DNA of 45,499 nt from Halomarina oriensis (GTDB lineage Archaea > Halobacteriota > Halobacteria > Halobacteriales > Haloarculaceae), in the NCBI RefSeq assembly GCF_009791395.1, contig NZ_WSZK01000022.1, forward strand, positions 1 to 45,499. Direction: 5' to 3'. Positions 10,425 through 45,499 of the stretch are shown piece after piece. Within the stretch, counting starts at the first letter, position 1. Each line of letters begins with the position of its first letter. Made by a program: the position numbers and the translations under genes. The notes beneath the pieces were generated by a model, which was given only the letters and a program-made list of their open reading frames with translations, had not been told where the DNA came from and made no database searches.

Positions 10425-10455
10425 GGAGAGCTGGAGACGAGTAGTCCGCAGCGCT

Positions 10456-11502
10456 TCACTGTCCAATAGTCATGGCCGGCATCTCGAAGAAGGCAGTCTC
10501 GTACCCGTCGTGACGGGCAACCTGTGGCGGCAAGTCGACGGTGAGTGTGAGGTGTTCGATGTCGGTAGTCTTCTCGAGGGGCACGCCATAGTGGTATCCG
10601 AGCGTCGAATCCAACGCGGCACTGAGTGAGATGTCAATCGTATTCCCAGCTGCGGTGGTCACTTCTCCACTGAGTTGCATCATCGGAAGGACGATACGAT
10701 TGTACGGGGTGTGGGCGGTCACTGCCAGATACGTTCCCCCGCCGAATCGTGGTGCATCCCGGATGAGACGAGCAGTGAACTGCGCATCACCGCTCACCGC
10801 TGTCCCGAGGACGCTTCCTACTGCGATGTCTGGTACGACCCCACTGGGAACGCCCATGTCCATTGGTTCGATGGCTGCGCGCTGGCCTTGTCGTTCCCCC
10901 AACCGGCGAATCGAGAGGTCATAGAGGGCGTCGGTATCGAAGGTAAACGGGAGTTCTACGGACAGAGGGTCGCCGAACCGACTGGTGAACGCTCCCGTGC
11001 GGGGCATCGAGAGCCCGCCGATGCTGAGTCGAACCTGATACTCACCTTCGCCATCGAGGGGAAAGTTCGCCCCGTAGTGAAATCCCATCTGCTGGGAGAG
11101 CATTGGGTAGATGACCTCTTGGGACACGAGCGACTCGTCGCGATGGATTTCGAGCGAGACGCCGCTGGAGGGTACGACGATGCCGGTTTCGCGATCCCAC
11201 ACCGACGCCATCAGATGGACAGAGTCGTCAGCGGTGACGGTCACCTTCTCACGCGCGTCCGACTGGACATTCCAGAACCGATGGGGATAGGAGTAACTCA
11301 ACGCGACCTTGTACGCACCGACTGTCGCGGTTTGGATGAGCGCCATCCCTTCGGTAATCGCCGGGACGTAGACTGCTTGGGGTCGATTCTCGACGAGTGG
11401 CGGATCTCGCCAGGCCGATGTTCGTTCGAATCCGTCGAGACACCCGGCGAGTGTCGCACCAAGCCCCGCCCCACCTAGCCGAAGGACATCACGCCGGTCC
11501 AT
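10456..11502 (-). CDS. Tat lipoprotein related to iron-transport (Tp34/FetP-like) proteins
   Basis: From the ATG at 11502 this is a 348-residue exported lipoprotein. The N-terminus has a twin-arginine-type signal (DRRDVLRLGG) and a lipobox (LAGC), so it should be anchored outside the membrane. Two similar beta-rich halves follow. Segments such as AITEGMALIQ, the GFHYGANFPL motif and a second GYHYGVPL motif resemble the Tp34/FetP iron-binding fold, in which Met and His residues coordinate metal. It may bind iron or copper outside the cell. The call rests on this motif resemblance. It is convergent with the membrane protein ending at 10424. Confidence 0.6.
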   Translation of the reverse strand: MDRRDVLRLGGAGLGATLAGCLDGFERTSAWRDPPLVENRPQAVYVPAITEGMALIQTATVGAYKVALSYSYPHRFWNVQSDAREKVTVTADDSVHLMASVWDRETGIVVPSSGVSLEIHRDESLVSQEVIYPMLSQQMGFHYGANFPLDGEGEYQVRLSIGGLSMPRTGAFTSRFGDPLSVELPFTFDTDALYDLSIRRLGERQGQRAAIEPMDMGVPSGVVPDIAVGSVLGTAVSGDAQFTARLIRDAPRFGGGTYLAVTAHTPYNRIVLPMMQLSGEVTTAAGNTIDISLSAALDSTLGYHYGVPLEKTTDIEHLTLTVDLPPQVARHDGYETAFFEMPAMTIGQ

Positions 11503-11626
11503 TATCGAACCACGGGCGCACGGACACAAACACTCGCTGATTGTGGCTCGACCCTCACGAGTTAACAAATAAGGCCGCTCCGAATAATAAGAACACTAGA
11601 TAAAACCCCGTTTTCTAACAGCCCGA

Positions 11627-11635
11627 TTAATATAT
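11627..11635 (+). promoter_or_regulatory. Probable TATA box for the zntA-like ATPase gene
   Basis: The AT-rich run TTAATATAT lies 22-30 bp upstream of the ATG at 11657, in a 150-bp spacer that is markedly AT-rich for this genome. Many haloarchaeal transcripts are leaderless or nearly so, which fits a TATA box this close to the start. No clear operator palindrome was seen between it and the ATG. The position is inferred from composition and spacing only. Confidence 0.5.
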
Positions 11636-11656
11636 TTCCGGCAGCTATCCTGAGCT

Positions 11657-14293
11657 ATGACAGACGAGTCCCCAGGCTCCGACACATCTTCATCCGGGGG
11701 GGACAGCGAGCAGTCCTCGGGCGGCCACGGTCATGACCATAACCATGACCGTGACCACAGTCACTCGGCAGCGAGCAACGCTGCCGCCGACGAACGTCTC
11801 GACGGTGACACGACGGTCGAGTTGTCGGTACCGGAGATGGACTGCGCCTCGTGTGCGAAGAAGGTCGAATCGAGTGTCCGCAAGTTGGAGGGGATCGAGT
11901 CAGTCGACCCCCAGGTGACGAGCGGGCGACTGCGTGTCGGCTACAACGACACGCAGACCGACGCCGACGCGATCACTGACCGGGTCGAGAAGGCGGGCTA
12001 TACGGTCGAAGCAAGTAGTGGCCCACAGTCCGTGCGATTTGACGTCCCCGATATGGACTGTGCGTCGTGTGCTGGCAAGGTCGAGAACGCACTTGGGTCG
12101 GTGAGTGGTATCCACCGTTACGACACGCAGCCGACGAGCGGGACTGTCCAAGTCGAGTTCGACGAGGAGACAGTCTCGCGTCGTCAACTCGTCGATGCCA
12201 TCGAGGGAGTGGGGTACGGGGTCACCAACGCTGAGGCGAACGACGAAGCGAACCAGACGGGCCGGTCAGAGAGCGTCTGGCGGAGTAAGCGGGCCATCAA
12301 GACGTGGATTAGCGGCGTGTTCGTCGGGTTCGGACTCCTCTTCGAGTTCCCCCTCGAGGCGGCAAACGCGGAGGTGGCGAGCATCCTCGGGACCGAACTG
12401 TTGCTGGCGGACGTACTGTTCTTGGTCGCCGTCGCCATCGGTGGACAGACAATCCTCCGCAACGGCTACTACTCCGCTCGGAACCTGAACCTCGACATCG
12501 ACCTGCTGATGAGCAGTGCAATCATCGGCGCACTCGTCGCGAGTCTCGGGTTCGGGGCGGCGCTGTACTTCGAGGCGGCGACGCTCGCGTTCCTGTTCAG
12601 CGTCGCCGAGTTGCTCGAACGCTACTCGATGGACAAGACCCGCAACTCCCTGCGTGAGCTGATGGACCTCTCGCCCGACGAGGCGACGGTCCGGCGCGAC
12701 GGCGAGGAACTGACCGTCCCCGTCGACGACGTTCGGGTCGGTGAAGTCGTTCTCGTTCGTCCGGGCGAGAAGATTCCGATGGATGGCGAGGTCGTCAACG
12801 GTGAGAGCGCGGTCAACCAGGCTCCCATCACGGGGGAGTCGGTGCCCGTCGATAAGACGACCGGCGACGAGGTGTACGCTGGCACGGTCAACGAGGGCGG
12901 CTACTTGGAAGTGAAAGTCACGAGCGAGGCGAGCGACAACACCATCTCGCGGGTGGTTTCGATGGTCGAAGACGCCCAGTCGAACAAGACTGACCGCGAG
13001 CAGTTCGTCGAGCGCTTCGCAGACTACTATACACCCATTGTCGTCACCGTCGCCCTTGCCGCGATGGTAATACCACCAGTGGCGCTGGGTGCGAGCTGGA
13101 CGACGTGGTTCGTCCGCGGTCTCACACTGATTGTGCTCGCGTGTCCGTGTGCGTTCGTCATCTCGACGCCCGTCTCCGTGGTGTCGGGCATCACCAGCGC
13201 CGCGAAGAACGGCGTCCTCATCAAAGGCGGCGACCACCTGGAGGCGATGGGCGAGGTCGATGCGATCGCCCTCGACAAGACCGGGACGCTGACGAAGGGT
13301 GAACTCGCTGTGACGGATGTCGTTCCACTCAACGGCAACAGCGAGGAGGACGTCCTGCGCTGTGCCCGTGGCCTCGAAACCCGGTCGGAACACCCCATTG
13401 GCGAGGCGATCGTCGCGCAGGCAAACGACCGTGGTGTGGCCGACCGCGAGGTCGACGACTTCGAGAGTCTCACCGGGAAAGGCGTTCGGGCGGACCTCGA
13501 CGGGGAGCCACACTTCGCGGGGAAACCAGGCCTGTTCGAGGAGCTGGGCTTCGACCTCTCGCACGTCCACGCGACGACCGACGGCGGGCAGGTAACGGCG
13601 ACGACCCAGCAGCTCTGTGAACGCAATGACTGCCTCGACTTGTTGGAGAGCACTGTCCCAAAACTCCAGTCGGAGGGAAAAACCGTCGTCCTCGTCGGGA
13701 CCGAAGACGAACTGGAGGGCGTCATCGCCGTCGCCGACGAGGTTCGCCCCGACGCTGCGGCGATGGTCGAGCGTCTCCACGACCTCGGCGTGGAGCACGT
13801 CGTGATGCTCACGGGCGACAACCAGCGCACCGCCAACGCCATCGGGGAGCAGGTCGGTGTCGATGACGTCCGCGCCGAACTCCTCCCCGAAGACAAGGTG
13901 AGCGCGGTCGAGGCGCTCCAGCGTGAGTACGGCACGGTCGCGATGGTCGGCGACGGCATCAACGACGCGCCCGCACTGGCCACCGCCGACGTCGGCGTCG
14001 CCATGGGTGCGGCCGGGACCGACACCGCCCTCGAAACGGCGGATATCGCGTTGATGGCCGACGACCTCTCGCGTCTGCCGTACCTCTACGACCTCTCACA
14101 CCGGGCGAACGGCGTCATCCGGCAGAACATCTGGGTCAGTCTCGGCGCGAAAGCCGTTCTTGCCGTCGCCGTCCCCTTCGGCCTCCCCATCTGGGCCGCC
14201 GTCCTGTTCGGCGACGCCGGCATGACCGTCGGTGTCACCGGCAACGCGATGCGCCTCTCCCGCGTTCGTGCCGCACTTGGAGCCACGACGTAA
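11657..14293 (+). CDS. Zn/Cd-type heavy-metal P1B ATPase, full length
   Basis: An 878-residue ATP-driven metal exporter. The N-terminus is His/Asp-rich (HGHDHNHDRDHSH), then two heavy-metal-associated domains each with MDCASC (about residues 58 and 131). The transmembrane CPC motif is at 496-498, the phosphorylated Asp540 is in DKTGTLTKGE, SEHPIG follows, and the hinge is [10 protein letters not shown]. The last helices carry a Lys (LGAKAV) and an Asp (FGDAGM), typical of Zn/Cd/Pb exporters, not Cu pumps. It probably forms an efflux unit with the CDF exporter two genes downstream. A 510-codon antisense frame within it is a codon-bias shadow. Exact metal is inferred. Confidence 0.95.
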   Translation: MTDESPGSDTSSSGGDSEQSSGGHGHDHNHDRDHSHSAASNAAADERLDGDTTVELSVPEMDCASCAKKVESSVRKLEGIESVDPQVTSGRLRVGYNDTQTDADAITDRVEKAGYTVEASSGPQSVRFDVPDMDCASCAGKVENALGSVSGIHRYDTQPTSGTVQVEFDEETVSRRQLVDAIEGVGYGVTNAEANDEANQTGRSESVWRSKRAIKTWISGVFVGFGLLFEFPLEAANAEVASILGTELLLADVLFLVAVAIGGQTILRNGYYSARNLNLDIDLLMSSAIIGALVASLGFGAALYFEAATLAFLFSVAELLERYSMDKTRNSLRELMDLSPDEATVRRDGEELTVPVDDVRVGEVVLVRPGEKIPMDGEVVNGESAVNQAPITGESVPVDKTTGDEVYAGTVNEGGYLEVKVTSEASDNTISRVVSMVEDAQSNKTDREQFVERFADYYTPIVVTVALAAMVIPPVALGASWTTWFVRGLTLIVLACPCAFVISTPVSVVSGITSAAKNGVLIKGGDHLEAMGEVDAIALDKTGTLTKGELAVTDVVPLNGNSEEDVLRCARGLETRSEHPIGEAIVAQANDRGVADREVDDFESLTGKGVRADLDGEPHFAGKPGLFEELGFDLSHVHATTDGGQVTATTQQLCERNDCLDLLESTVPKLQSEGKTVVLVGTEDELEGVIAVADEVRPDAAAMVERLHDLGVEHVVMLTGDNQRTANAIGEQVGVDDVRAELLPEDKVSAVEALQREYGTVAMVGDGINDAPALATADVGVAMGAAGTDTALETADIALMADDLSRLPYLYDLSHRANGVIRQNIWVSLGAKAVLAVAVPFGLPIWAAVLFGDAGMTVGVTGNAMRLSRVRAALGATT

Positions 14294-14324
14294 TCGACGT
14301 CAAATCATCATCTGCTACTCATCA

Positions 14325-14618
14325 ATGGAACTCACATCACGCCGAGCGTTAGTCCTCGTCGCACTGGCGGGTATCATCATCCCAGGGGTGTTGGACTTCA
14401 CCCTCGTCCAGTACGGGTACTCCGGTGTCGGTAGCTTCGTTTGGACAGTTGGTTACGGAGGTGCCGTGATTGCGGTCTGGTACGGCTGGCTCCGGCCACT
14501 CGACATCACCGGTGACACCGGTGAGTCACGCGCGTGGACCGTCGACGCTGACGACCCAACGGTCGAGAGTGATTCGACGGACAGGGATACGGCTTCCGAG
14601 GAGGACGACGACAGATGA
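14325..14618 (+). CDS. Small two-helix membrane protein with acidic tail
   Basis: A 97-residue protein starting at the ATG at 14325, after the ATPase stop. Two hydrophobic segments (about 8-27 and 34-55) are followed by a strongly acidic, Asp/Thr/Ser-rich C-terminal tail ending EEDDDR. Its stop overlaps the CDF start by four bases (ATGA), so it is translationally coupled to the exporter and lies in the ATPase-to-CDF operon. It could be an accessory subunit or a cytoplasmic metal-buffering tail; no family is recognised. Confidence 0.8.
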   Translation: MELTSRRALVLVALAGIIIPGVLDFTLVQYGYSGVGSFVWTVGYGGAVIAVWYGWLRPLDITGDTGESRAWTVDADDPTVESDSTDRDTASEEDDDR

Positions 14619-15547
14619 GCATACACGATCACTCCGGTGGCCACGATGACGAACACGGAAGCCATCAAAGTGGGTCACAGAGCACCCGCACGCTCGCCGT
14701 CGTTGCGGCGATCAACTTCGTCGGGTTTGTCGTCGAACTGGCCGGTGGCCTGGCCTTTGGGTCGGTCGCGCTCATCAGCGATGCGTTCCACATGCTGTTC
14801 GATATGCTCGCGTACGTGATGGCCTTCGGCGCGAGCTACACCGCTGAACGATACGAAGGCGGTGAGCGATGGTCCTACGGCCTTCACCGTCTCGAACCGA
14901 CGGCGGCGTTCCTCAATGGTGCGTTACTCCTCCCGATGGTGGGCTACATCCTCTGGGAGTCCTACCAGCGCTTCCTGAATCCGGTGGCCATCGACCCAAT
15001 GTTGACACTGGTCATCGCCGTCGGTGGGCTGCTCGTTAACCTCGGCTCGGTGTATATTCTGCAGGGCGGCGAGATGAGCCTCAACGAGCGCGGCGCGTTC
15101 TACCACCTGCTCGGGGACGCCGGGGGGTCGGTGGCCGTCATCGTCTCGACAGTTGCCGTCGCGGCGTTTGATCTTCCGATTGCCGACCCGATTGCGGCCG
15201 TGCTTATCGGGGCACTCGTCCTCTGGTCGGCGGGGAAGGTGCTCAGAGAAAGTACAGCGATTCTCCTCGAACGTAGTCCCGTGCCGAGTGACGAGGTCCG
15301 AACTGAGCTCTTGGCACTCGACGATGTCGACAGTATCGCGGATCTGCACATCTGGCAGGTTTGTAGCCAACTGACAGTTGCGACAGTTCGACTCACGACG
15401 CAAAGCGAGTCGCTCACTGACCAGCGGGCAGTTCAGCAGGCCGTTCACGAACGACTAGCTGAGTGGGATATCGACCACGCGACCGTTGAGTGTCTCGACG
15501 GCACTGCCCCCGATGTCGTCCAGTCTGCGGCGACCGACCATCACTGA
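14615..15547 (+). CDS. Cation diffusion facilitator (CDF) metal exporter
   Basis: A 310-residue secondary exporter that swaps protons for divalent metal, usually zinc, cadmium or cobalt. A His/Asp-rich N-terminus (HDHSGGHDDEHGSHQSG) precedes six membrane helices. The metal sites are visible in helix 2 (DAFHMLFD) and helix 5 (HLLGD, an HxxxD pair as in zinc members). The C-terminal cytoplasmic domain has the ferredoxin-like pattern DDVDSIADLHIWQV. Coupled to the small membrane protein upstream and following the Zn/Cd ATPase, it points to a zinc/cadmium efflux operon. Confidence 0.93.
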   Translation: MSIHDHSGGHDDEHGSHQSGSQSTRTLAVVAAINFVGFVVELAGGLAFGSVALISDAFHMLFDMLAYVMAFGASYTAERYEGGERWSYGLHRLEPTAAFLNGALLLPMVGYILWESYQRFLNPVAIDPMLTLVIAVGGLLVNLGSVYILQGGEMSLNERGAFYHLLGDAGGSVAVIVSTVAVAAFDLPIADPIAAVLIGALVLWSAGKVLRESTAILLERSPVPSDEVRTELLALDDVDSIADLHIWQVCSQLTVATVRLTTQSESLTDQRAVQQAVHERLAEWDIDHATVECLDGTAPDVVQSAATDHH

Positions 15548-15553
15548 GTTACA

Positions 15554-15964
15554 ATGCCACCGCACGCCACCAGCGACATGTTCGAGATTCTCGATGTGAC
15601 CGACGAGAACCTCGTCGCGGTTCGGGTCGGTCGGGGCACACCGAAGGGCTACGACGAACTCTACTCGCTGCTCGTCGAGAAAACCGAACAGCATGGTAGG
15701 GTCCGCGTGTACGAAGAAGTCACCGCCTGGACATTCCAGACGTTCCTTTCACACTTCCACGGCATCGCCCCGGACCTCCGATACGGTTCCGGGTTCACCA
15801 TCAGTCGCTATGCGGCGATCGGTGACTCGCCGTGGGCGAAACTGCTGTTCGTGTTGTGGCGCGCAATTCGCCCTGTGTGGCCGGTCGCCCCCGACGAGAT
15901 GCGTTACTTCTCGCTCGACGCGGAGGCTGCTGCCCAAGAGTGGATTCAGGAGCGTGAGCAATGA
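15554..15964 (+). CDS. SpoIIAA/STAS-like domain protein
   Basis: A 136-residue soluble protein six bases after the CDF gene. The pattern of a small alpha/beta domain with VYEEVTAW, the FHGIAPDLR segment and the ending RPVWPVAPDEMRYF matches the SpoIIAA-like (STAS-related) family. In other members a single domain binds lipids or partner proteins; the role here is unknown. Its stop overlaps the next start by four bases (ATGA). A degenerate second copy lies at 24939-25255 beside an amidohydrolase, so the family has moved or duplicated in this replicon. Confidence 0.8.
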   Translation: MPPHATSDMFEILDVTDENLVAVRVGRGTPKGYDELYSLLVEKTEQHGRVRVYEEVTAWTFQTFLSHFHGIAPDLRYGSGFTISRYAAIGDSPWAKLLFVLWRAIRPVWPVAPDEMRYFSLDAEAAAQEWIQEREQ

Positions 15965-17055
15965 CCGATAGCATCCTCGTGGTCGGTGGGTACGGAACGG
16001 TCGGACGAACGGTTTGTCGAACTCTCGCTGAGTCGACCGACCGGCCAGTACTGGCCGGGGGCCGGAATTGGCGGGCGGCACAACGATTCGCAGCGACAGC
16101 AGACGGTGTCGAGGCGCGACACATCGATGTCGCCGATAGCAGAACGTATGACGAGACACTCAGAAATGTTGAGACCGTCGTCGTCTGTTTCGATCAGAAG
16201 ACCGTGGCATTTCCACAGGCCTGCTTCGAACGAGGCATCGATTATTTCGACACGTCGCCGACCGATACGTTGCTCCGAGCGATCGAGGAATGCGACGATG
16301 TCGCCCGAGCTGAGAAAGCGACAGGTATTCTGAGTCTTGGGCTCTCCCCTGGGCTGACGAATCTCTTTGCTGCTGCAGGGATGACCGCCCTAGACTACAC
16401 GACCCAAATCGACATCACACTCCTGCTGGGCCTCGGCGAGGAGTTCGGCCCGGACACGATTAAGTGGACCCTCGAAGATGGACTCGATGACTTCACGGTG
16501 CGGACTGACGGTGTCGACCGAGATGTCGTCGCGTTCACTGATGGACGCGTCACTCATATCCCCGGGTGGGGTCGCCGTCGGGTATACCGCGCGAATCTCG
16601 CCGACCAGCACGTCCTCGCTCGTACGACGACTGTCCCCACGGTTGCCACGCGACTCTGCTATAGCTCACACATCGCGACGAAGGCACTCGCCATGGTGAT
16701 GCACACGGGCCGCGTCGACGACGTGGTTTCGGGTATCGGTATCGAGAGGATCGCCCGTACCGGTTCGTCACTGGCGGTTGGTGCGGCCGAATCAGTGGTG
16801 ATGACTGAGGTTCAGGGGGTCGTCGGTGATTGTCCGACTCGGCACACGCGGTGGCTTCGCGGGCCTGACCAGGCCCGTGCCACCGGGCTCGTCGCGGCAC
16901 AAGCAATCCAACAGCTCGATACAACATCGATACCGACCGGAGTCCACCACCTCCACCAAGTGTTCGACCTTGAGCCATTCTGTGAGCGACTCTTAGAAGC
17001 CGGATACGCACTGGGTGAGTCAGTCGAACAGACCAGTGAACCATCCATATTTTGA
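15961..17055 (+). CDS. Saccharopine-dehydrogenase-family NAD(P)-binding protein
   Basis: A 364-residue protein with an N-terminal Rossmann nucleotide-binding motif (VVGGYGTVGRTV) at residues about 7-18, followed by a second alpha/beta domain typical of the saccharopine dehydrogenase fold. The family reduces or oxidises imino acids, but many members act on other substrates, so lysine metabolism is not implied. It is translationally coupled to the SpoIIAA-like gene, which suggests the two act together. Its link to metal export is unknown. A normal-length protein without obvious damage. Confidence 0.85.
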   Translation: MTDSILVVGGYGTVGRTVCRTLAESTDRPVLAGGRNWRAAQRFAATADGVEARHIDVADSRTYDETLRNVETVVVCFDQKTVAFPQACFERGIDYFDTSPTDTLLRAIEECDDVARAEKATGILSLGLSPGLTNLFAAAGMTALDYTTQIDITLLLGLGEEFGPDTIKWTLEDGLDDFTVRTDGVDRDVVAFTDGRVTHIPGWGRRRVYRANLADQHVLARTTTVPTVATRLCYSSHIATKALAMVMHTGRVDDVVSGIGIERIARTGSSLAVGAAESVVMTEVQGVVGDCPTRHTRWLRGPDQARATGLVAAQAIQQLDTTSIPTGVHHLHQVFDLEPFCERLLEAGYALGESVEQTSEPSIF

Positions 17056-17078
17056 TGAGCAAACCTCTGAGCTACTTC

Positions 17079-17360
17079 TCACCCTCGTTCGAGGTACAGT
17101 GAGTAGAGAATGGTTGCGAACCCGAGCGCGACGAGAACGCTGTTGAGAAGGACTCCAACTTCGAGCGAGACCGAGAGGACTTGGTTGGCAATACCCGCGA
17201 GTAGCGCCCCCAGAGTGATGATTGTGAACCCGATACCGAGGAGCCGAATAGACGGTGAGTTTGTCTGGCGATATGCCTTGTATGCGATGTACGTAATCGC
17301 CGCACCCAGCAGCAAGATGATGGTTTTGACGACGACGATAGCAGGTCCGACCCACATCAC
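17079..17360 (-). CDS. Three-helix membrane protein (DUF7521-like), partner of adjacent HTH gene
   Basis: A 93-residue protein with three hydrophobic segments (about 6-25, 41-60 and 66-85), ending LYLERG. It is cotranscribed with a winged-helix gene: the HTH stop overlaps this ATG by four bases. Small DUF7521-like membrane proteins paired with an HTH gene are common in haloarchaea and are thought to form a sensor/regulator pair. Target and signal are unknown. The family name is from memory of that gene pair. Confidence 0.75.
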   Translation of the reverse strand: MMWVGPAIVVVKTIILLLGAAITYIAYKAYRQTNSPSIRLLGIGFTIITLGALLAGIANQVLSVSLEVGVLLNSVLVALGFATILYSLYLERG

Positions 17361-17734
17361 AGTTCGTCCCCCATCTTCGACCAGATATCGGCCAGTCGTT
17401 CCCCAGCGTTTCGTGGGGGGCGGTCGATGGTCACTGCGAACGTATCGTCGGATTCCATCGAGATTGTAACGTCCTCGAAGTCTCGTTCGTAGAGCGTCAC
17501 GCGGCCCCCGTTCGGGTTGATCCGGTCCTGTTCGCGAACGAGTGACGCCGCGCAGAGTCGGTCGAGCTTACGGTACACCGTCGACTGGGAGATGTCACAG
17601 GCATCGATAAGGTCGGTTGCGGTCATGGGCTCGGCAGTGTGTTGCAGGATGGTTCGACAATCTTCATCGTCCAGCGCCTCGAGGACCACCTCTGGCGAGG
17701 GGCCATCGTCAGATGGCGCTGGAGCAGGCACCAT
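17357..17734 (-). CDS. Winged helix-turn-helix regulator (DUF7351/ArsR-like)
   Basis: A 125-residue DNA-binding protein. Residues about 15-80 form a winged helix: LEALDDEDCRTILQH, then a recognition helix in DISQSTVYRKLDRL, then the wing around VTLYERDFEDV. The first-helix pattern and length match haloarchaeal HTH regulators that pair with the small membrane protein downstream. Metal-binding Cys/His sites are not obvious, so it may read the state of its membrane partner instead of a free metal. The 220 bp upstream contain no gene. Confidence 0.85.
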   Translation of the reverse strand: MVPAPAPSDDGPSPEVVLEALDDEDCRTILQHTAEPMTATDLIDACDISQSTVYRKLDRLCAASLVREQDRINPNGGRVTLYERDFEDVTISMESDDTFAVTIDRPPRNAGERLADIWSKMGDEL

Positions 17735-17957
17735 GGACCGAGTTTATCGACGCGACGGAATATACACCCCGAAAGATGACGCCAACTGTCGAGAAATCTA
17801 CCTTACTGGTCCCGAGTTGAACGAGCAGTCAATAGATTCCGATGTCCTACAATTCTACGCTCTCCCGCCGTATCAACGCTGTAGTCTGTCCAATATGGCA
17901 CCTCTCTGCCACGACTTCCAGTTTCCCCAAGAGAACAAACAGAGCCAGCTAATCAGG

Positions 17958-18161
17958 TCAGTACTGGCCCAGGTCGACGCCTCGTGAAAACATCGTCAAG
18001 AGATAAATGGAGCCAAGTCCCATCAGCCCGACCGCACCGAAGGTTGTGTAATTGACTAGTGACGACTCTGCTGGACTTGTCGCGAAAATGTACAGTACTG
18101 TCAGGGCTAGCAGAGAGACTGTCATCAACCCAACGATAGTATCACCAACGGTAGTATTCAT
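17958..18161 (-). CDS. Very small two-helix membrane protein
   Basis: A 67-residue protein starting at an ATG with two hydrophobic helices (about 7-28 and 38-58). Both ends are short and it has no recognised motif. It sits between the HTH gene and the DtxR locus, separated from both by more than 220 bp, so it may be monocistronic. Small membrane proteins like this are hard to prove by sequence alone; the start and composition are reasonable. Confidence 0.5.
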   Translation of the reverse strand: MNTTVGDTIVGLMTVSLLALTVLYIFATSPAESSLVNYTTFGAVGLMGLGSIYLLTMFSRGVDLGQY

Positions 18162-18507
18162 GGCTCATTCCTCTGCTTCCTGCAGTATATTTCAATCGAA
18201 TCGTTTCTGGCATTGCCGCTAGTCGGCTCGTATTGTGCCAACAATTGATTGGTCTGATATCACTGGATTATGACTCACTGAAGTCGCGACCGGCGCGCCC
18301 AATGCACGGACGAGATTGAGAGTATTACGCCCCCTGTTCGAACTCTGGAGGACTGCTGCAATCTCGGTATCTCGTTTGCTCCGCCGGTCAACCGCTGCGG
18401 ATGGCGGGGGTAGAGAGTAATCTCGAGCCACTCGCATCTCCGCCGCGAACTCTGGTTCAACTCGGTATCCGACCAGTCGACACTGTGGCGCAGCTGGCAC
18501 GAGCGCT

Positions 18508-18708
18508 TCAGTGTCGACCTTCGAGACCACCGCTCGAACGATTCTCGTTGTTGCCGACCGTGCGGGTGTCGATGTTCCGTGTCAACCAGAGCGCAAAACG
18601 GCCCGTCACGAGACACAGAACGAAAACCCACCGACGGACTGTGCGGCCCTTGAACAGGGTGATGAAGTGATCGACCACGTCAGCGACATCGTCTATCCAC
18701 GTACTCAT
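18508..18708 (-). CDS. Possible small single-helix membrane protein divergent from the DtxR gene
   Basis: A 66-residue frame from an ATG at 18708 with an amphipathic start (STWIDDVADVVDHF) and one hydrophobic helix (WVFVLCLVTGRFALWL). It is divergent from the metal regulator at 18770 with only 61 bp between the two starts, so it could share the operator there. The C-terminal part (NNENRSSGGLEGRH) is less convincing, and a second minus-strand frame continues nearby, so it may be a remnant. No family recognised. The neighbouring 18162-18507 stretch shows only weak overlapping frames. Confidence 0.35.
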   Translation of the reverse strand: MSTWIDDVADVVDHFITLFKGRTVRRWVFVLCLVTGRFALWLTRNIDTRTVGNNENRSSGGLEGRH

Positions 18709-18721
18709 ATTTGAGCCAGAC

Positions 18722-18734
18722 GCCCATGTTGGGC
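18722..18734. repeat. Short inverted repeat GCCCA-TGT-TGGGC upstream of the DtxR gene
   Basis: Five-base arms around a three-base spacer in the 61-bp region between the possible small gene at 18708 and the DtxR start at 18770. It is 17 bp upstream of the TTTAGA palindrome. It may be a second operator, or coincidence given its length. Confidence 0.35.
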
Positions 18735-18751
18735 ATCTAGCAAAGCTTTTG

Positions 18752-18767
18752 TTTAGACGTATCTAAA
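18752..18767. promoter_or_regulatory. Palindromic operator TTTAGA-CGTA-TCTAAA at the DtxR/MntR gene
   Basis: A perfect 6-bp inverted repeat around CGTA, ending two bases before the ATG at 18770. DtxR/IdeR/MntR regulators bind AT-rich palindromes of this kind, and a site overlapping the start would block transcription initiation of the gene itself. Its placement predicts autoregulation of the regulator-MCO-ZIP operon, with possible control of the divergent small gene. The palindrome is seen directly; the binding protein is inferred. Confidence 0.6.
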
Positions 18768-18769
18768 TC

Positions 18770-19477
18770 ATGTTCATGGTGACCCCAAAGGTCGAAGACT
18801 ACCTGAAATCAATCTACCGACTTCAGGACAGAGATACACCGGCCATGACCGCTGAGGTCGCGGCCGCGATGGGGGTCAAACCACCAACCGTGACGGCGAT
18901 GTTACAGCGAATGGCCGATGACGGTCTCGTTCACTACCAGCGGTATCAGGGTGCTCAGCTCACCGATCGTGGTGAGAAGGGGGCGCTCAAAGTGCTCCGC
19001 AACCATCGGCTACTCGAACTCTTCCTGACCGAGGAGCTCGGATACGACTGGGCAGAGGTACACGACGAAGCAGACGTCCTCGAACATCACCTGAGTGAGA
19101 CGTTAGTCGAGCGAATCGAAGCGCTCCTTGGGTCGCCTGCGGTAGATCCACATGGAGAACCGATTCCTACTGCTGACCTCGAAATTCGAGAATGCGAGAC
19201 ACAGCAGTCGTTAGCGAAGTGTCAAGAGGGAACAGTTGCGGTCGTTTCTGAGGTGCGAGAAAGCAGCGCAGACGTGCTGTCGTATCTTGCGAAAGCTGGG
19301 ATCTCGCTTGGAACGGAACTCGAAGTGGTCGAAACTGCGCCATTCGGGATGATCACATGTAAAGTGAGGACGACAGAGAAACCGCTCTCGCTCCCGACTG
19401 ACGTCGCTGCAGAAATCTACGTATCACGACCTGCTGAACCGGCTGAAAACGAACGCAGAGAGTACAACGAGGCGTAA
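18770..19477 (+). CDS. DtxR/MntR-family metal-dependent transcriptional regulator
   Basis: A 235-residue repressor that senses divalent metal and controls metal uptake genes. An N-terminal winged helix contains VEDYLKSIYRL and the recognition helix KPPTVTAMLQRM. The dimerisation/metal domain has EADVLEHHLSE, and a C-terminal SH3/FeoA-like domain begins near residue 155. By eye alignment, the position of DtxR Met10 is Asp and that of DtxR Cys102 is also Asp, as in manganese-sensing MntR rather than iron-sensing DtxR; the usual MntR Glu11 is Lys. The gene leads a tight operon with the multicopper oxidase (3-bp gap) and ZIP transporter. The metal is not proven. Confidence 0.93.
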   Translation: MFMVTPKVEDYLKSIYRLQDRDTPAMTAEVAAAMGVKPPTVTAMLQRMADDGLVHYQRYQGAQLTDRGEKGALKVLRNHRLLELFLTEELGYDWAEVHDEADVLEHHLSETLVERIEALLGSPAVDPHGEPIPTADLEIRECETQQSLAKCQEGTVAVVSEVRESSADVLSYLAKAGISLGTELEVVETAPFGMITCKVRTTEKPLSLPTDVAAEIYVSRPAEPAENERREYNEA

Positions 19478-38827: not shown

Positions 38828-38977
38828 TCAGCAGTCGACGTACTCGGTGTTATGCCCTTTACCACAGTTACCGCATGGAGGAAGCGTATCCGTCGAGTCG
38901 TCGAGAGTCACTTCCCAATCGCAATTAGAGCAGCAGTACGTACCCGTTCGTGGCTTCTCCCCGACATCGTACGTCAT
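38828..38977 (-). CDS. Short zinc-ribbon protein
   Basis: A 49-residue protein translated directly from the sequence. It starts MTYDVGEKPRTGTY and has CSNCDWEV then CGNCGKGHNTEYVDC, two CxxC pairs forming a zinc ribbon of rubredoxin-like size. The ATG overlaps the stop of the 88-residue gene upstream (ATGA), so they are coupled. Such proteins usually act as nucleic-acid-binding or partner modules. Too short for most ORF callers. Confidence 0.75.
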   Translation of the reverse strand: MTYDVGEKPRTGTYCCSNCDWEVTLDDSTDTLPPCGNCGKGHNTEYVDC

Positions 38978-39240
38978 GCCCAATCATAACATTCGATGTA
39001 CACAAAATCACGGGTGTGTGAGGGTTCGCTCTGGAACGGGTCAATGCAGCCGTTGAGTGAGGGCTCGATAAGCAACTGACAATCCGTCTGCTCGATGGCC
39101 TGCAATGGAACGGTGGTGAGCAGTAGGTGGTAGAACTGTGAGCGCTCTCGGAGTCGAAAAGGTCGCTGATTGAGGTATGAACCAGGAGGAGTGACGATGG
39201 CTTCAACAGACCTCTCACCCGGCGCGACCAGCGTAGACAT
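38974..39240 (-). CDS. Small protein coupled to a zinc ribbon, unknown
   Basis: From the ATG at 39240 this is an 88-residue protein: VAPGERSVEAIVTPPGSYLN, then FRLRERSQFYHLLLTTVPLQ, ending RDFVYIECYDWA. No motif is recognised. An upstream extension to 39342 adds a Cys-rich unlikely segment. Its stop overlaps the zinc-ribbon start by four bases, which supports both being genes. It diverges from the helicase gene at 39380, 139 bp away, a position common for regulators or accessory factors of defence genes. Confidence 0.6.
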   Translation of the reverse strand: MSTLVAPGERSVEAIVTPPGSYLNQRPFRLRERSQFYHLLLTTVPLQAIEQTDCQLLIEPSLNGCIDPFQSEPSHTRDFVYIECYDWA

Positions 39241-39379: not shown

Positions 39380-42300
39380 ATGCTCTCGCTTCCTCCACTC
39401 GTCGACAACGCCAACAGAACTCTCGAAGACGCCTACAAGCGTGTCATCCCCCAAATCGAAGAGGCCCGAATTGCAACGGGGTATTTCTATCTCTCAGGGT
39501 TCGACCTCTATCGGGACGACCTCGAGAACTTAGCTGAGCCTGAAGATCTGGGACACGCCCCACTTCGGATACTGATGGGTCGTCAGACTGACCGGGGCAC
39601 TGCAGACGAGATTGGAGAAGGACAGAACCTCAGAGAAGAGCTGAAACGCGAAGTGAGAGAAAACATTTCTGAGCTGAACAACGCCCAAATCGGCAGATTG
39701 GATCGACTCCGGGATTTCATCGCGAACGGTGAGGTGAGCGTCCGGGTGCGGACCCCGGAGAACGGCTACTTCCACGCTAAGGGGGCCTCGTTTCGAGCGC
39801 CTCTCGATGATGCCGATTGGGGAGAAGATGAGGACGAAGATACGCGGCCCTGTGCCACCATTGTGGGGTCATCGAACTTTACCAAAAGTGGGCACCAGAA
39901 CAATATCGAACTGAACCTCACAAGCCAAGATCGCCACAGAGCCGAGGCGTTCGAAGAGTGGTACGACAACCAGTGGGCGAATGCCGAACCATTCAGTGAA
40001 GAAATCATCCACATCATCGAAACCAGTGCAGAGTACCAGGACTGGCAAGAGCAACAGAACACTCAGCGTGAGGAAGGTGATCGGTCTGAAGAACTGGGTA
40101 CGTACCTTGAGCCGTTCGAACTCTACAAACTTCTCGCGTATGACGAACTCAATGGCAACGTCGACATCCGCGATAGTCCGTTATACTACTTCCAAAAGCT
40201 CGGATACGAGAGTGCCAAGGAGAAGCTCTCACAATTCGATGGCTGTATCATCTCCGACTCGGTCGGGCTCGGTAAATCGTTCATCGGTGGGGAACTTCTG
40301 CATGACGCTCGCCAACGCGGTGACCACTGTCTCCTCATCGTCCCAGCGAATCTGACCGAGCAGTGGAAAGACCTGCTCCAGAAGGACACCGATGAATCCG
40401 GAAATCCATACTTCGGTCTGGAGGTTGACGGCACCCACTTGGACGTAATGAGCATCAGTCGATTCCAGAACCTGTCGTATGAGGAGGTGCAGGACCTCAA
40501 GGAAGAGTTCGATGTCCTGCTTATTGACGAGGCCCATCGGTTCCGAAACTACGGGAAATGGCGGCCCATACCGGACCACGAGGACGACTACAAGGGAACA
40601 CGACGACACGCTAACCTCAGGCAGTTCCGTGGGAAGACAATGATAATGCTGACGGCGACCCCAATCAACAACAGCGCCACCGATTTGAAAAACCTCATCG
40701 GCCTGTTCACTAGCCCCGAAGAGCTTCGGAACAAGGCGTCACTCGACTTCGGAGCCTTCGACGAGTATATTGATCTCTCAGCGACACGCAAACGCATCGC
40801 AGCCGGGGAAACGGAGGTTAGCGACGACGAACAGCAAGATATCACTGAGCAACTCCAGCGACACTCCTCAGAGATTTCGAACATCCTGAACGAGGTGATG
40901 GTTCTCCGGACACGCAAACACGTCAAAGACCAAATCCAGGACAGTGAGGACTTTGAGATGAGTTTCAAGCCTCCGAGACTCAACAAGCAGCAGTACTCAC
41001 TGCCAGCAGCGTACCAGCCGGTGTATCGGATGCTCCCCGACGTAATGGATGCTCTGCACCTTCCTCACATCACCGTAAAGAATCCTAAGGCCGGGAGTAC
41101 GCTGAAGGCGCTCTACAAGCTGAACCTCCTCAAACGCCTGGAATCCTCGACCTATGCCTTTGTCCAGTCCATCGAGACACTTCACCAGAGTGAGCGGCAA
41201 CTCCTTCGACTTCTCGAGAAGCTTCCTGCGGACGAGAATATCAATGTTCTCCGAACGATTCAGCATGGCAGTGATTCAGAAGTTGCCGGTATCGTCGAGG
41301 GGGTAGACGCCGCAACGGACTTCGAGCAGACGCTTGAAGAATTTGGGTTCGATACGACTGCCATTCAGGCAGAAGGAGGAGATGTCGCAACCGAGGGTGA
41401 TGAACTGGCCGACGCGACTGTTGAGGAAGTACGGACGTACGTGCAGGAGGACCTCACGCTTCTCTCGTACTTCCTCGCGCAGTTCATCGGCGATGTGGCA
41501 CGTGATGCTGGTGATGTGAGCGACCAAGCTGTGTCGACACGCCAGTGGCTTACAGACCACAACGCAGGTGTCCTTCCGGATATCTCCGAAGAAGAGACGA
41601 ATCCCATCCTCTATCCGGGAAGCGACCTGAGCGATGTCGATTCGTCTACCCAAGCCTTCTACGAGGCCGTGTTCTCGCTTCGAGAATTTCGGGACCCGAA
41701 AATCGACCGGCTCGCAAAAGTCCTCACTGAACACGACCAGAAGGTACTCATCTTCACCCAGTATCGAGCGACGGCCGAGTACGTCTATCGGACACTCTGC
41801 AACAACAGTGATTCACCACTCACCGATGCCAACAGTGCCGTCGTCAAAGGCGGTGACGAGAACAAACAAGGCATTATTCAGCGCTTCGCGCCCGAAGCAT
41901 CCGGCTACCAGCAGACGCTTGCCGAGTCTGGGGATTCGGAGCTCCAGTACGTCATCGCCACAGACACGCTGAGTGAAGGCGTGAATCTTCAGGACGTCCA
42001 CGTCGTGGTCAACTACGACCTACCATGGAACCCGATGCGTATCGTTCAGCGCGTCGGTCGAGTCGATCGTATTGGGAGTACTGCCGAGAAACACATCCAC
42101 AACTTCTACCCTGATGGCGACATTGAGGCCGCAATCAAGCTTCTGAAACGCTTGCAAGCGAAAATCAACGATATTGCGCTAATCGTCGGCAAGGAGAACA
42201 ACATCCTCGACCCGAACGAGGACCAGATTTTCGAAAAGACCGGTGTGAACACCGAGAAGACCATCGGGGAGTTGCAGGTCGATGAAATCGAGGACTCACT

Positions 42301-43186
42301 CCAGAAGTCGCGTGAAATCGACGACGTGAACGAACTCGACGACACGAGCAAGAACCCTCTCCTCCGGAACGCAGGGAGTAACGAACACGCTGCGTTCGAG
42401 CGCTACCTGTTGAAGCGGGAGCTGAACGAGGATTACGGTCTCGAAGCGGAGGACTTCGAGTACGCCGTGGAATTTTTCGAGGACCCGCCAGAACAACGAG
42501 AATTCCTCTACACCAATGTCACCGACCACGACGCTGGCCCTCGACCTGGGGTCTTCGCGCTAGCGCACCTGTGGTTCGACGATGAGGACCACGAGTCACC
42601 ACTTGGCCGGGTTCGACGCGCGTTCTACTACAAACCCTTCGCCGATGAGGTCAAGGAACGACCTGTGAGTACGCTGAATATCGACCCGACTGTCGACGGA
42701 GAGCCGATTGCTGAGAACCCAGCAACAGCGCTCTCGAACCGAGACGACATCCAGGCGGTTTTAGACGAACGGCTTGAGATAATTCGGGAGGGTCAGGTGG
42801 AAGGCGCGTTCAAGCAAGGGGAGGCGTTCTCGAAAGAACAAGAAACGATTCTCGACTTCATCAGCCACTACCTACAGCCAAACTACGGTGAGAACTCAGT
42901 ACCAGTGGAGAGGTTCGAGACGTTAGATGCATGGGCCGACGACCTTCGTAAGCGGCTCCAAGAGGTGAAGCTGGCAAACACCGATGAAGATCGGATACTT
43001 CGCGACGTGTTCCGGCATAACGAGCAGTATGATTCGTTCCCTGAGTGGCCGCCAGCCGAATTCCTCGAGCAACTCCAAACATTCCTAGAAGAGAACGTGG
43101 AAGGCTCTTCCGAGTACCAGGCGAAACTGGTCGGAGAGAGCGAAGTCCGAGCTCACCTCGTGTGTTGGGGTGTGGTTGGGCGATGA
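39380..43186 (+). CDS. PLD-like nuclease fused to SNF2-type helicase
   Basis: A 1268-residue protein from the ATG at 39380. The N-terminal ~200 residues carry a PLD-like site (YFHAKG followed by GSSNFTKSG). The helicase core has GLGKS (Lys about 299), DEAH at about 383, LTATPINNS, LIFTQYRATAEYV, and the ending QRVGRVDRIGS. The C-terminal 400 residues are an uncharacterised region rich in acidic helices. Such PLD-SNF2 proteins act with DNA methyltransferases in restriction-like defence, and DISARM contains a SNF2 helicase and a PLD protein as separate genes. It is convergent with a methyltransferase. Confidence 0.93.
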   Translation: MLSLPPLVDNANRTLEDAYKRVIPQIEEARIATGYFYLSGFDLYRDDLENLAEPEDLGHAPLRILMGRQTDRGTADEIGEGQNLREELKREVRENISELNNAQIGRLDRLRDFIANGEVSVRVRTPENGYFHAKGASFRAPLDDADWGEDEDEDTRPCATIVGSSNFTKSGHQNNIELNLTSQDRHRAEAFEEWYDNQWANAEPFSEEIIHIIETSAEYQDWQEQQNTQREEGDRSEELGTYLEPFELYKLLAYDELNGNVDIRDSPLYYFQKLGYESAKEKLSQFDGCIISDSVGLGKSFIGGELLHDARQRGDHCLLIVPANLTEQWKDLLQKDTDESGNPYFGLEVDGTHLDVMSISRFQNLSYEEVQDLKEEFDVLLIDEAHRFRNYGKWRPIPDHEDDYKGTRRHANLRQFRGKTMIMLTATPINNSATDLKNLIGLFTSPEELRNKASLDFGAFDEYIDLSATRKRIAAGETEVSDDEQQDITEQLQRHSSEISNILNEVMVLRTRKHVKDQIQDSEDFEMSFKPPRLNKQQYSLPAAYQPVYRMLPDVMDALHLPHITVKNPKAGSTLKALYKLNLLKRLESSTYAFVQSIETLHQSERQLLRLLEKLPADENINVLRTIQHGSDSEVAGIVEGVDAATDFEQTLEEFGFDTTAIQAEGGDVATEGDELADATVEEVRTYVQEDLTLLSYFLAQFIGDVARDAGDVSDQAVSTRQWLTDHNAGVLPDISEEETNPILYPGSDLSDVDSSTQAFYEAVFSLREFRDPKIDRLAKVLTEHDQKVLIFTQYRATAEYVYRTLCNNSDSPLTDANSAVVKGGDENKQGIIQRFAPEASGYQQTLAESGDSELQYVIATDTLSEGVNLQDVHVVVNYDLPWNPMRIVQRVGRVDRIGSTAEKHIHNFYPDGDIEAAIKLLKRLQAKINDIALIVGKENNILDPNEDQIFEKTGVNTEKTIGELQVDEIEDSLQKSREIDDVNELDDTSKNPLLRNAGSNEHAAFERYLLKRELNEDYGLEAEDFEYAVEFFEDPPEQREFLYTNVTDHDAGPRPGVFALAHLWFDDEDHESPLGRVRRAFYYKPFADEVKERPVSTLNIDPTVDGEPIAENPATALSNRDDIQAVLDERLEIIREGQVEGAFKQGEAFSKEQETILDFISHYLQPNYGENSVPVERFETLDAWADDLRKRLQEVKLANTDEDRILRDVFRHNEQYDSFPEWPPAEFLEQLQTFLEENVEGSSEYQAKLVGESEVRAHLVCWGVVGR

Positions 43187-43193
43187 CCCGTGG

Positions 43194-45499
43194 TTACGGA
43201 AGTGGGCCGTCCTGATTCAGGAGACTGTACTTCTCGAACACCAAATCGAAGTACTCCTCATCCATCAATCTCGGAGTACCAACTCGGTGGAAGTCGTCAA
43301 GCACGAACTTCACGTCCTGAGGTTCCAACCCATAGGCATGGAACGCAGCGGCATCGACCTCGGCCTGTAGCTCTCGGCGGTCTGATTCCTCGATCGCTGG
43401 TTCAATCCCATCGAGACGGTCACGCATCTCTGCGAACGCTTCACCGTAACAGTTCAAGCGAGCAGCGCGCTCGGCGATGTAGTGGAACCAGTCGTCATCG
43501 TCCGTGAGACGTGGCAGCTGGGATTCCAGTAGCTCTCTTTTGACGATATGTGTCTCTACCTTCGTTCGCATCAAGAAATCGAACACGATGCTATTCAACA
43601 ACCCAGTCGCCACGAACAACTCACGGTCAGTGAAGCGACGCTCGTAGGGCGAACGGAGCGGAGATTCCGACAGATGGTCTTCCTCAGGCACGATTTCGAA
43701 TGGTTTGAACGTGTTAATCGTGTGGAGACAGATGACGTCTTTGGGAAGCACTGTGGCAATTATCGTCCGCTCATCCCGAGACCGAGACACGTCACGGATT
43801 CCGATACGGTACTCAGTACAGTCAAGTAGCACGTCTTCTTCCTCTAACCCATGGCCACGGCGATTCTCCAGTAGTTCGTCAACGAAGCGGACTTGTGACT
43901 GACCGGTGTCCACGCCACCGAAGGCATCGTAAATCGCTCTTTTGAGATTTCCACGGTTGAATTTCTTTTCACGAACTCGGTACTGAGCGCTGTTCGGTGG
44001 ATCATACATCCCTCGGCTCCAGTACTTTGGACCGTCTAGACTACCAAAATGGGTGTTATCGAACTGGAATTGGTGGATGTTTTTACCCCCAAGTACTGGG
44101 TAATCTGAATCCCTCGGAGATGACTGGAGACGATCCTTGTCGGTGGATTCCACAAACTCCTTTGTTAGCATATCTACAGTCCACGTCTCTGCTAACTTCT
44201 CTCCGAGAGAGGGGCAGTTGACGACTTTCTCTAGTACACTGACTTCCGTTTGTGAGGTAATAGACGGGAATATCCTCCCCTCCGGAGAGTACCTAAGGAG
44301 GATGTCACGGGGAATCGTAACTGCCTCATCTTCGATTCGGTAGACGATATTCATATCGCGTTGATTAAAAATTCCCCGCAGTTCAGACGTTCTCCCTCCG
44401 TAATCGAATGTTAGAATTGCAAACCGATATCGGTCGTCGATCGCTGCGAAGATGCCCTTATTTTCGAACCCAATTAAATTCTCTACATTTGAATGATTCA
44501 GTAGATGCGTCCGGAGATCTTTTCCCATCACTCCACCGAAAATCGTACCAGGCAAAAGGAGGCTGACTTTCACACCTTCCCGGGAAAGCCTGAAGACCCG
44601 CTCCAAGAAGAGTGCCGAAAGTTCGTTCTTGGTCGGCATCGTCCGACCGCCCACGACTGGTGACTGAAGCTCGTAGACATCTCCTTTGGTGAAGAAGCTT
44701 GCTTGAGTCTCCATCGAGTCTTGATATTCTTCCCACTCACGGGCAACGGCTGGATTCGAAAGGAGGGCCTCCATCACCACGTCTTTTCGCTCAGAACGGT
44801 AGCGGCGGAACTGCTCATCGTATCTGATGAAGAAGTCGTCACGATTCGCATAGAGCATATCCCATGGTGGGTTTCCGATGAAGACGTCGAAGCCGCCGCT
44901 CTCGAAAACGTCGGCGAATTCCAGGGGCCAGTGGAACGGAGACCACTCTCTGAGTTCCTCGATGGTGATGTCCTCGAACCCGGCGTCTTGGAAGTCTCGA
45001 CGTAGGATTTGGTCGAATCTATCCCTGTGTCTCTCTATTCGGGCTTCGGCCTCTTTTCTCCATTCTTGAGCCTCGGAACTGGTCTCGGCACGCTTGTGAT
45101 TCCTGATGGCTGATTTCACATCTTCAAAACGCGCTCTCACTTCCCAGGAGTCGAGGTCACTGTCGCCATCCTTGTTAAACTCGATATCTGTATCGATTTG
45201 CCCAATCAGGCTGTTCCCTTGTCGAACGTTGAAGTCAATGTTTGGGAGCGGCTCGACCTCACTGGGTTCGTCTTCAATGTCAGCCACCATCGAGAGCCAT
45301 AGCCGTAACTTACAGATCTCGACTGCGCCCTCGTCGACATCGACGCCGTAGAGATTATTTAGAATAGCACTCCGCTTAGCAAACAGCGACGCAGAACTCT
45401 TCCCCGACTCAATCTCTTCGACCTCTTCACGGCTACGACTCTCCAGTTCCCAGCTTTTGCCTTCAGCATCGAGGCGCTGGAAATACTCAATGCACTGCA
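43194..45499 (-). CDS. Eco57I/PglX-like N6-adenine DNA methyltransferase (partial, runs off right edge)
   Basis: The reading frame is open to 45499, giving 767 residues of a longer protein. The LNNLYGVDVDEGAVEICKLR segment and the NPPW catalytic motif (FIGNPPWDMLY) mark an N6-adenine methyltransferase; the SAM-binding FxGxG motif is probably just outside the window. The C-terminal half (about 400 residues after NPPW) is the target-recognition region. It resembles PglX/DrmMI-type enzymes. It is convergent with the PLD-helicase gene (7 bp between stops), suggesting a two-gene defence system. Start beyond window. Confidence 0.93.
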   Translation of the reverse strand, partial: QCIEYFQRLDAEGKSWELESRSREEVEEIESGKSSASLFAKRSAILNNLYGVDVDEGAVEICKLRLWLSMVADIEDEPSEVEPLPNIDFNVRQGNSLIGQIDTDIEFNKDGDSDLDSWEVRARFEDVKSAIRNHKRAETSSEAQEWRKEAEARIERHRDRFDQILRRDFQDAGFEDITIEELREWSPFHWPLEFADVFESGGFDVFIGNPPWDMLYANRDDFFIRYDEQFRRYRSERKDVVMEALLSNPAVAREWEEYQDSMETQASFFTKGDVYELQSPVVGGRTMPTKNELSALFLERVFRLSREGVKVSLLLPGTIFGGVMGKDLRTHLLNHSNVENLIGFENKGIFAAIDDRYRFAILTFDYGGRTSELRGIFNQRDMNIVYRIEDEAVTIPRDILLRYSPEGRIFPSITSQTEVSVLEKVVNCPSLGEKLAETWTVDMLTKEFVESTDKDRLQSSPRDSDYPVLGGKNIHQFQFDNTHFGSLDGPKYWSRGMYDPPNSAQYRVREKKFNRGNLKRAIYDAFGGVDTGQSQVRFVDELLENRRGHGLEEEDVLLDCTEYRIGIRDVSRSRDERTIIATVLPKDVICLHTINTFKPFEIVPEEDHLSESPLRSPYERRFTDRELFVATGLLNSIVFDFLMRTKVETHIVKRELLESQLPRLTDDDDWFHYIAERAARLNCYGEAFAEMRDRLDGIEPAIEESDRRELQAEVDAAAFHAYGLEPQDVKFVLDDFHRVGTPRLMDEEYFDLVFEKYSLLNQDGPLP

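Follow-up and report, generated by a model that had tools for sequence, protein, structure and literature searches.

Switching of the specificity of restriction systems by DNA inversion is known from bacteria. Here we describe an archaeal locus that very probably belongs to the same kind, at the end of the Halomarina oriensis contig NZ_WSZK01000022.1; this entire contig, of exactly 45,499 bases, is the window of our analysis (contig C15 of G000, a 4.07 Mb haloarchaeal genome in 50 contigs), and it carries a gene for a PLD-SNF2 nuclease-helicase (HEL) tail to tail with a gene for an Eco57I/PglX-type adenine methyltransferase. In the Type I systems with hsdS inversion (the cod locus of Streptococcus pneumoniae with PsrA, PMC4948785; hsdS survey, PMC7394358) site-specific inversion likewise exchanges portions of the determinant that sets restriction-modification specificity, a silent partner copy is present, and a recombinase lies nearby. 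What flips there belongs to a separate specificity subunit, whereas the haloarchaeal segment comprises the N-terminal catalytic part and the promoter region of a single-chain methyltransferase; the haloarchaeal system also has a PLD-SNF2 effector and an archaeal host. A second point of comparison is the Int1 switch of the haloviruses phiH and phiCh1 (PMC6210493), where Int1 is located in an invertible tail-fibre segment. The recombinases are homologous tyrosine recombinases (42-44% identity) and in both cases there are two alternative genes, one of them uncoupled from its start, but Int1 is inside the flipping viral segment and switches tail fibres, while in our locus the recombinase is outside and the target is a methyltransferase.

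With respect to the effector, BREX-related Type-2 systems (PMC12839542) also combine an HKD nuclease fused to a Swi2/Snf2 helicase with an N6-methyladenine (m6A) methyltransferase; the methyltransferase studied here, however, matches the Eco57I and MmeI families and not DUF1156, and neither a DUF499 ATPase nor DUF3780 was among the scanned neighbours of complete loci. The PADLOC search proposed in a preliminary description of this DNA gave as best model for HEL the unnamed candidate C3a139 (HKD+Snf2), with a score of 8.7e-81 over residues 15-979; nothing on inversion was found for this candidate, and the matches to DrmD, BrxH and DrmMI were partial. As to Archaea, an inversion survey that included six archaea reported none in them (PMC5903667), text searches of two archaeal restriction-modification surveys gave no mention of an inversion switch (PMC10609329, PMC6471742), and the open PubMed Central papers that were searched contained no previous description of an archaeal host that switches a methyltransferase by DNA inversion.

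We interpret the locus, with high confidence, as a defence system of the restriction type in which inversion of a DNA segment switches the DNA specificity. More specifically, it is likely a host-encoded archaeal system in which a recombinase, from the family of the halovirus tail-fibre switches, inverts the promoter and the catalytic N-terminus of a single methyltransferase and so joins them to one or the other of two recognition halves. The conserved PLD-SNF2 protein would be the nuclease-translocase effector, and the methyltransferase would give self-marking and, by inference, target recognition. The flipping segment would supply the promoter region and residues 1-436, including motif I for S-adenosylmethionine (SAM), and each side of it would offer a different C-terminal half with motif IV, a target-recognition part and a tail; a tyrosine recombinase of the halovirus Int1 family would exchange the inverted repeats at codon 437, and each inversion would fuse the N-terminus in frame to half A or to half B.

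The order of genes in a complete locus is HEL, a convergent half B, a segment of 1.47 kb (promoter region and N-terminal 436 codons), half A in the direction of HEL, and a gene for a tyrosine recombinase convergent with half A. On a plasmid of Natronomonas gomsonensis (G116, L043), for example, HEL is followed by a convergent half B of 769 amino acids (aa), by a 1,217-aa methyltransferase opposite to half B, whose last 781 residues are half A, and by the convergent recombinase gene; halves B and A open there with the same DNA in inverted orientation. Among intact loci of the main clade the exact inverted repeats are 29-56 nt long, with arms ~1.47-1.52 kb apart, and start sharply at ATGCA, while in codon-shuffled controls of the same DNA the longest repeats are 11-17 nt. 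A second clade (L133, L134, L054, L135) has a different repeat, ~48 codons deeper in the gene, again with both orientations. The flipping segment includes the promoter region, ~165 nt of strongly conserved sequence in which a TATA-like stretch precedes the start, and both fusions are open reading frames, of ~1,203 and 1,217 aa.

In the window only part of this arrangement is visible. The preliminary description spoke of two large convergent genes, but the contig stops inside that of the methyltransferase: what is present are the C-terminal 767 residues of a protein whose full homologues have ~1,200 aa, alignable to residues 437-1216 of a 1,217-aa homologue and open past the contig end, and SAM motif I (DPAVGSGAFL in homologues) falls in the part that is absent. 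The continuation can be recognized in another contig of the same assembly, C5, whose first 79 bases are the reverse complement of the last 79 of the window, with divergence thereafter; C5 carries a half A that is 53% identical to half B and 88% to half A of N. gomsonensis, followed by the recombinase (Table 1). We have considered the contig end as a plain assembly accident and rejected this, since in several other species the assembly is interrupted at this codon or close to it. In G094, G089 and G174, as in H. oriensis, contigs are cut at the repeat boundary or no more than a few codons from it: halves A and B occupy the opposite ends of contig C5 of G094, which stops at the boundary itself, C8 of G174 has the same layout, with ends ~five codons further in, and the contig of G089 is broken at one repeat arm.

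Besides flanking inverted repeats (exact over 29-56 nt in the main clade and, in H. oriensis, 79 nt common to two contigs), both orientations are observed, in one plasmid contig that holds the two states and in near-identical plasmids with the segment flipped. The former is contig C4 of G237 (Halorussus vallis plasmid, 167,465 bases), where the locus is present twice (L122 and L123). The flanks, of 10,494 and 6,755 bp, are 100% identical in the two copies, which differ only by inversion of the 1,467 bp in the middle. The ends of this contig overlap by 46 kb at 99.95-99.99% identity, as would those of an untrimmed circle of ~121 kb rather than of a simple duplication, so that the two passes most likely represent two states within one sample; the flip holds either way. 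Apparent long end duplications of this type are found in the records of two 'complete' plasmids, NZ_CP100003 (this same contig) and NZ_CP100403 (G303, contig C3). The near-identical plasmids are those of Halorubrum salipaludis (G402) and Halorubrum salinarum (G365), with flanks 99.6 and 98.2% identical and the segment flipped. Halobellus rufus has an identical 41-nt non-coding flank on both halves, as might be expected from a mixed population and not from a single orientation. Finally, the arms are alike within a genome and unlike between genomes: CTCGAATCAGAGGGACAAGG is found in both arms of L125 (G271) and L128 (G303), and most other loci have CTCGAAGCTGAAGGGCAAGG in their arms, a pattern that fits a continuing exchange between the arms. 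Separately, Halobaculum saliterrae has two paralogous cassettes (L164 and L172), ~92% identical, on separate contigs and in opposite switch states.

Some observations weigh against this interpretation. A search for the N-terminal segment in the H. oriensis assembly did not find it, so that this genome shows the switch only via two contig ends, and a repeat of 79 nt may alone be enough to interrupt an assembly from short reads. A contig of 1.5 kb with the segment was probably dropped from the assembly, since the contigs checked are all at least 18.8 kb and one so short is likely to have been filtered out. Furthermore, as the second clade uses another repeat, the exact site of recombination is not fixed.

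The N-terminal cassette carries motif I (residues 415-424) and the C-terminal halves carry the catalytic motif NPPW (residues 650-653); a half that is not joined to the cassette should therefore be inactive. Within one genome A and B are 53-56% identical overall, with 78-88% in the first 80 residues, mostly 33-60% in columns 120-640 and ~65-85% near the end, while orthologous halves are mostly 75-95% identical throughout. Half A occurs as two alleles only 58-60% alike among loci in which HEL and the N-terminal cassette are each 97-100% identical; thus recognition parts are exchanged while the nuclease stays constant. We infer that A and B recognize different sites, and that the methyltransferase produces m6A. 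As the promoter region is inside the segment, the N-terminus should always be expressed, which favours a choice between specificities over an ON/OFF control. Cleavage by the PLD-SNF2 protein would be guided by the methyltransferase, from which the nuclease would take its specificity, because a fixed nuclease with a specificity of its own, combined with a switched protective methyltransferase, would expose the host genome; the function of the whole would presumably be antiviral. As regards a second nuclease in the methyltransferase chain, which would be a feature of Type IIG restriction enzymes, none was recognized by Pfam in residues 1-400, and a structure model (predicted local distance difference test, pLDDT, 42) was too poor to use; AlphaFold models of the methyltransferase and of the helicase (pLDDT ~41) were likewise discarded.

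The recombinase (PF00589) is the neighbour of half A wherever a switch locus is complete; near non-switch loci it was not found. Its matches in the phage collection are to haloviruses only, with 44% identity to the integrase of HCTV-5 and 42-44% to Int1 of phiH, ChaoS9 and phiCh1; in a tree the switch-associated recombinases cluster together inside a larger haloarchaeal family. That the adjacent recombinase carries out the inversion is a well supported prediction. A recombination site common to the host locus and phiH/phiCh1 was considered and dismissed, as the repeats of the virus and host switches do not resemble each other, and no exact match to the host repeat was present in the viral contigs searched. 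Relatives of the recombinase (62-65%) also have as neighbours a methyltransferase of another family and/or a protein of 1407-1426 aa (L139, L193, L194, L195). No inverted repeat was found in these loci, and those with the other methyltransferase family (L139, L193, L194) were not counted as switches.

The association of HEL with the methyltransferase is beyond chance. There are 48 full-length HEL loci in 392 genomes of the order (two genomes, those with end-duplicated plasmid contigs, are counted twice), all 48 with the methyltransferase within 12 kb, and in 39 of them the nearest copy is convergent with HEL; in a phylum-wide sample (E<1e-60) almost all HEL matches are within the same order. 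The recombinase is within 12 kb of HEL in 13/48 loci, and in four more (G000, G427, G261, G174) it lies on a separate contig or, where the contig is broken, at its far end; the remainder are mostly simple two-gene versions with no switch (L044-L050 and others). Complete switch copies are mostly on plasmids of 100-310 kb, with other defence genes, such as GmrSD and TIR proteins, among their neighbours. In two non-switch loci (L044, positions 12971-15590, and L045) a Cap15 cyclic-dinucleotide receptor and two nucleotidyltransferase-like genes lie between HEL and the methyltransferase as a CBASS-like insertion, and in several others (L047-L050) this place is taken by a conserved protein of 343 aa that matches NucS_C and RAMA weakly. 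A haloarchaeal-like helicase-methyltransferase pair is also present on a contig labelled as a Nitriliruptoria bacterium metagenome-assembled genome (L166), possibly a binning error.

These results can be set against other explanations of the same locus. The flip might be an ON/OFF phase variation, with one half functional, the other decayed or regulatory, and specificity unchanged, and half B is indeed damaged in some cassettes, by a frame change in G238 and an IS1595 element in Halobaculum roseum. This is unlikely, as both halves are open in G116, G402, G237, G271, G365, G323 and G000, are kept between species at 83-99%, and yield intact joined proteins of 1,203 or 1,217 aa, and as the promoter region moves with the N-terminus, leaving an intact reading frame in either state. 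It is similarly improbable that the inversion is due to homologous recombination between the similar halves and that the recombinase is a passenger integrase. Imperfect similarity does extend to ~300 bp (77% identity) past the exact repeat, and recombinase homologues occur beside other methyltransferases with no inverted repeat found there; but the sharp start at ATGCA, arms that match within genomes and differ between them, the constant position of the recombinase next to half A in complete switch loci and the failure to find it near the others, and closest viral relatives that themselves reside within inversion switches, all argue against this explanation.

The locus might also consist of two independent components, namely a methyltransferase acting as an epigenetic regulator with alternating motifs and a PLD-SNF2 protein that works on its own. 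Haloarchaea keep conserved orphan methyltransferases, according to one survey (PMC6471742); the linkage of 48/48 HEL loci to this methyltransferase nevertheless makes such independence rather doubtful. Least credible is that the contig end truncates a DISARM, BREX or BREX-related cluster of the ordinary kind. The partial PADLOC matches, a weak similarity to PglX and the pairing of an HKD-Snf2 fusion with an m6A methyltransferase in BREX-related Type-2 systems (PMC12839542) speak for it, whereas the NCBIfam scores are far under the cut-off (144 of 610 for DrmD, 29 of 500 bits for PglX). By Pfam, drmA, drmB and drmC were absent from the open reading frames of the window and from the scanned neighbours, as were pglZ, brxC/pglY and DUF499 genes from the neighbours of complete loci; a standard DISARM or BREX cluster, which the preliminary description had advised looking for, was therefore rejected.

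The coordinates of the features in H. oriensis are collected in Table 1. The PLD-SNF2 fusion and the Eco57I/PglX-like methyltransferase convergent with it, as originally proposed, are confirmed by Pfam and by motifs: HEL starts at the same codon as its relatives (MLSLPPLVDN or similar), its HAK, GSSN, Walker A loop, DEAH and QRVGR motifs are invariant in the 13 homologues compared, and 7 bp separate the two genes. The idea of a compact pair of the restriction type, distinct from DISARM and BREX, also finds support, with the correction that the methyltransferase in the window is one of two alternative halves of an invertible gene. The tail-to-tail layout, which had been called unusual, is real and finds an explanation in the flipping segment, as this supplies the promoter and the methyltransferase N-terminus from the far side.

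Table 1. Features of the switch locus in the window and in contig C5 of the same genome
Feature	Position	Strand	Remarks
PLD-SNF2 nuclease-helicase (HEL), 1268 aa	39380..43186	+	Pfam PLDc_2, ResIII, SNF2-rel_dom, Helicase_C; PADLOC C3a139
PLD-like nuclease domain of HEL	39464..39976	+	PF13091 match; HAK 39773-39781, GSSN 39866-39877
SNF2-type helicase core of HEL	40181..42076	+	Walker A 40259-40279, DEAH 40526-40537, QRVGR 42047-42061
Methyltransferase C-terminal half B, 767 codons	43194..45497	-	Eco57I PF07669 1.5e-23; NPPW 44862-44873
Inverted-repeat arm, 79 nt	45421..45499	-	Same as nt 1-79 of C5; boundary from alignment to intact loci
Half A	C5:3-2348		
Recombinase, 234 aa	C5:2395-3099	-	PF00589 at 1.9e-9

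Upstream of HEL, a coupled small protein and zinc ribbon (38828-39240) had been pointed out. The 49-aa zinc ribbon is a plausible open reading frame (38828-38977, minus strand), but nothing ties it to HEL; relatives carry other genes in that place, and neither the zinc ribbon nor the small protein was seen to be conserved as a partner. Elsewhere in the H. oriensis genome there is a second PLD-containing, defence-like cluster (L007, G000:C24:66000-85000, positions 10108-18880, minus strand), with a 651-aa protein with a DrmC-like end, an 1818-aa helicase resembling DruE/DpdJ/DrmA, and a 448-aa protein.

Taken as a specificity switch, the locus represents a widespread, mostly plasmid-borne archaeal case of this form of inversion, with both states caught in sequence. 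The combination of a fixed nuclease with a changing methyltransferase half makes it testable whether the PLD-SNF2 effector reads its target through the methyltransferase. Related recombinases occur both in a host defence switch and in the tail-fibre switches of viruses, which suggests that hosts and viruses employ the same tool; and, if our interpretation is correct, archaea would possess a built-in way to alter what their defence recognizes.

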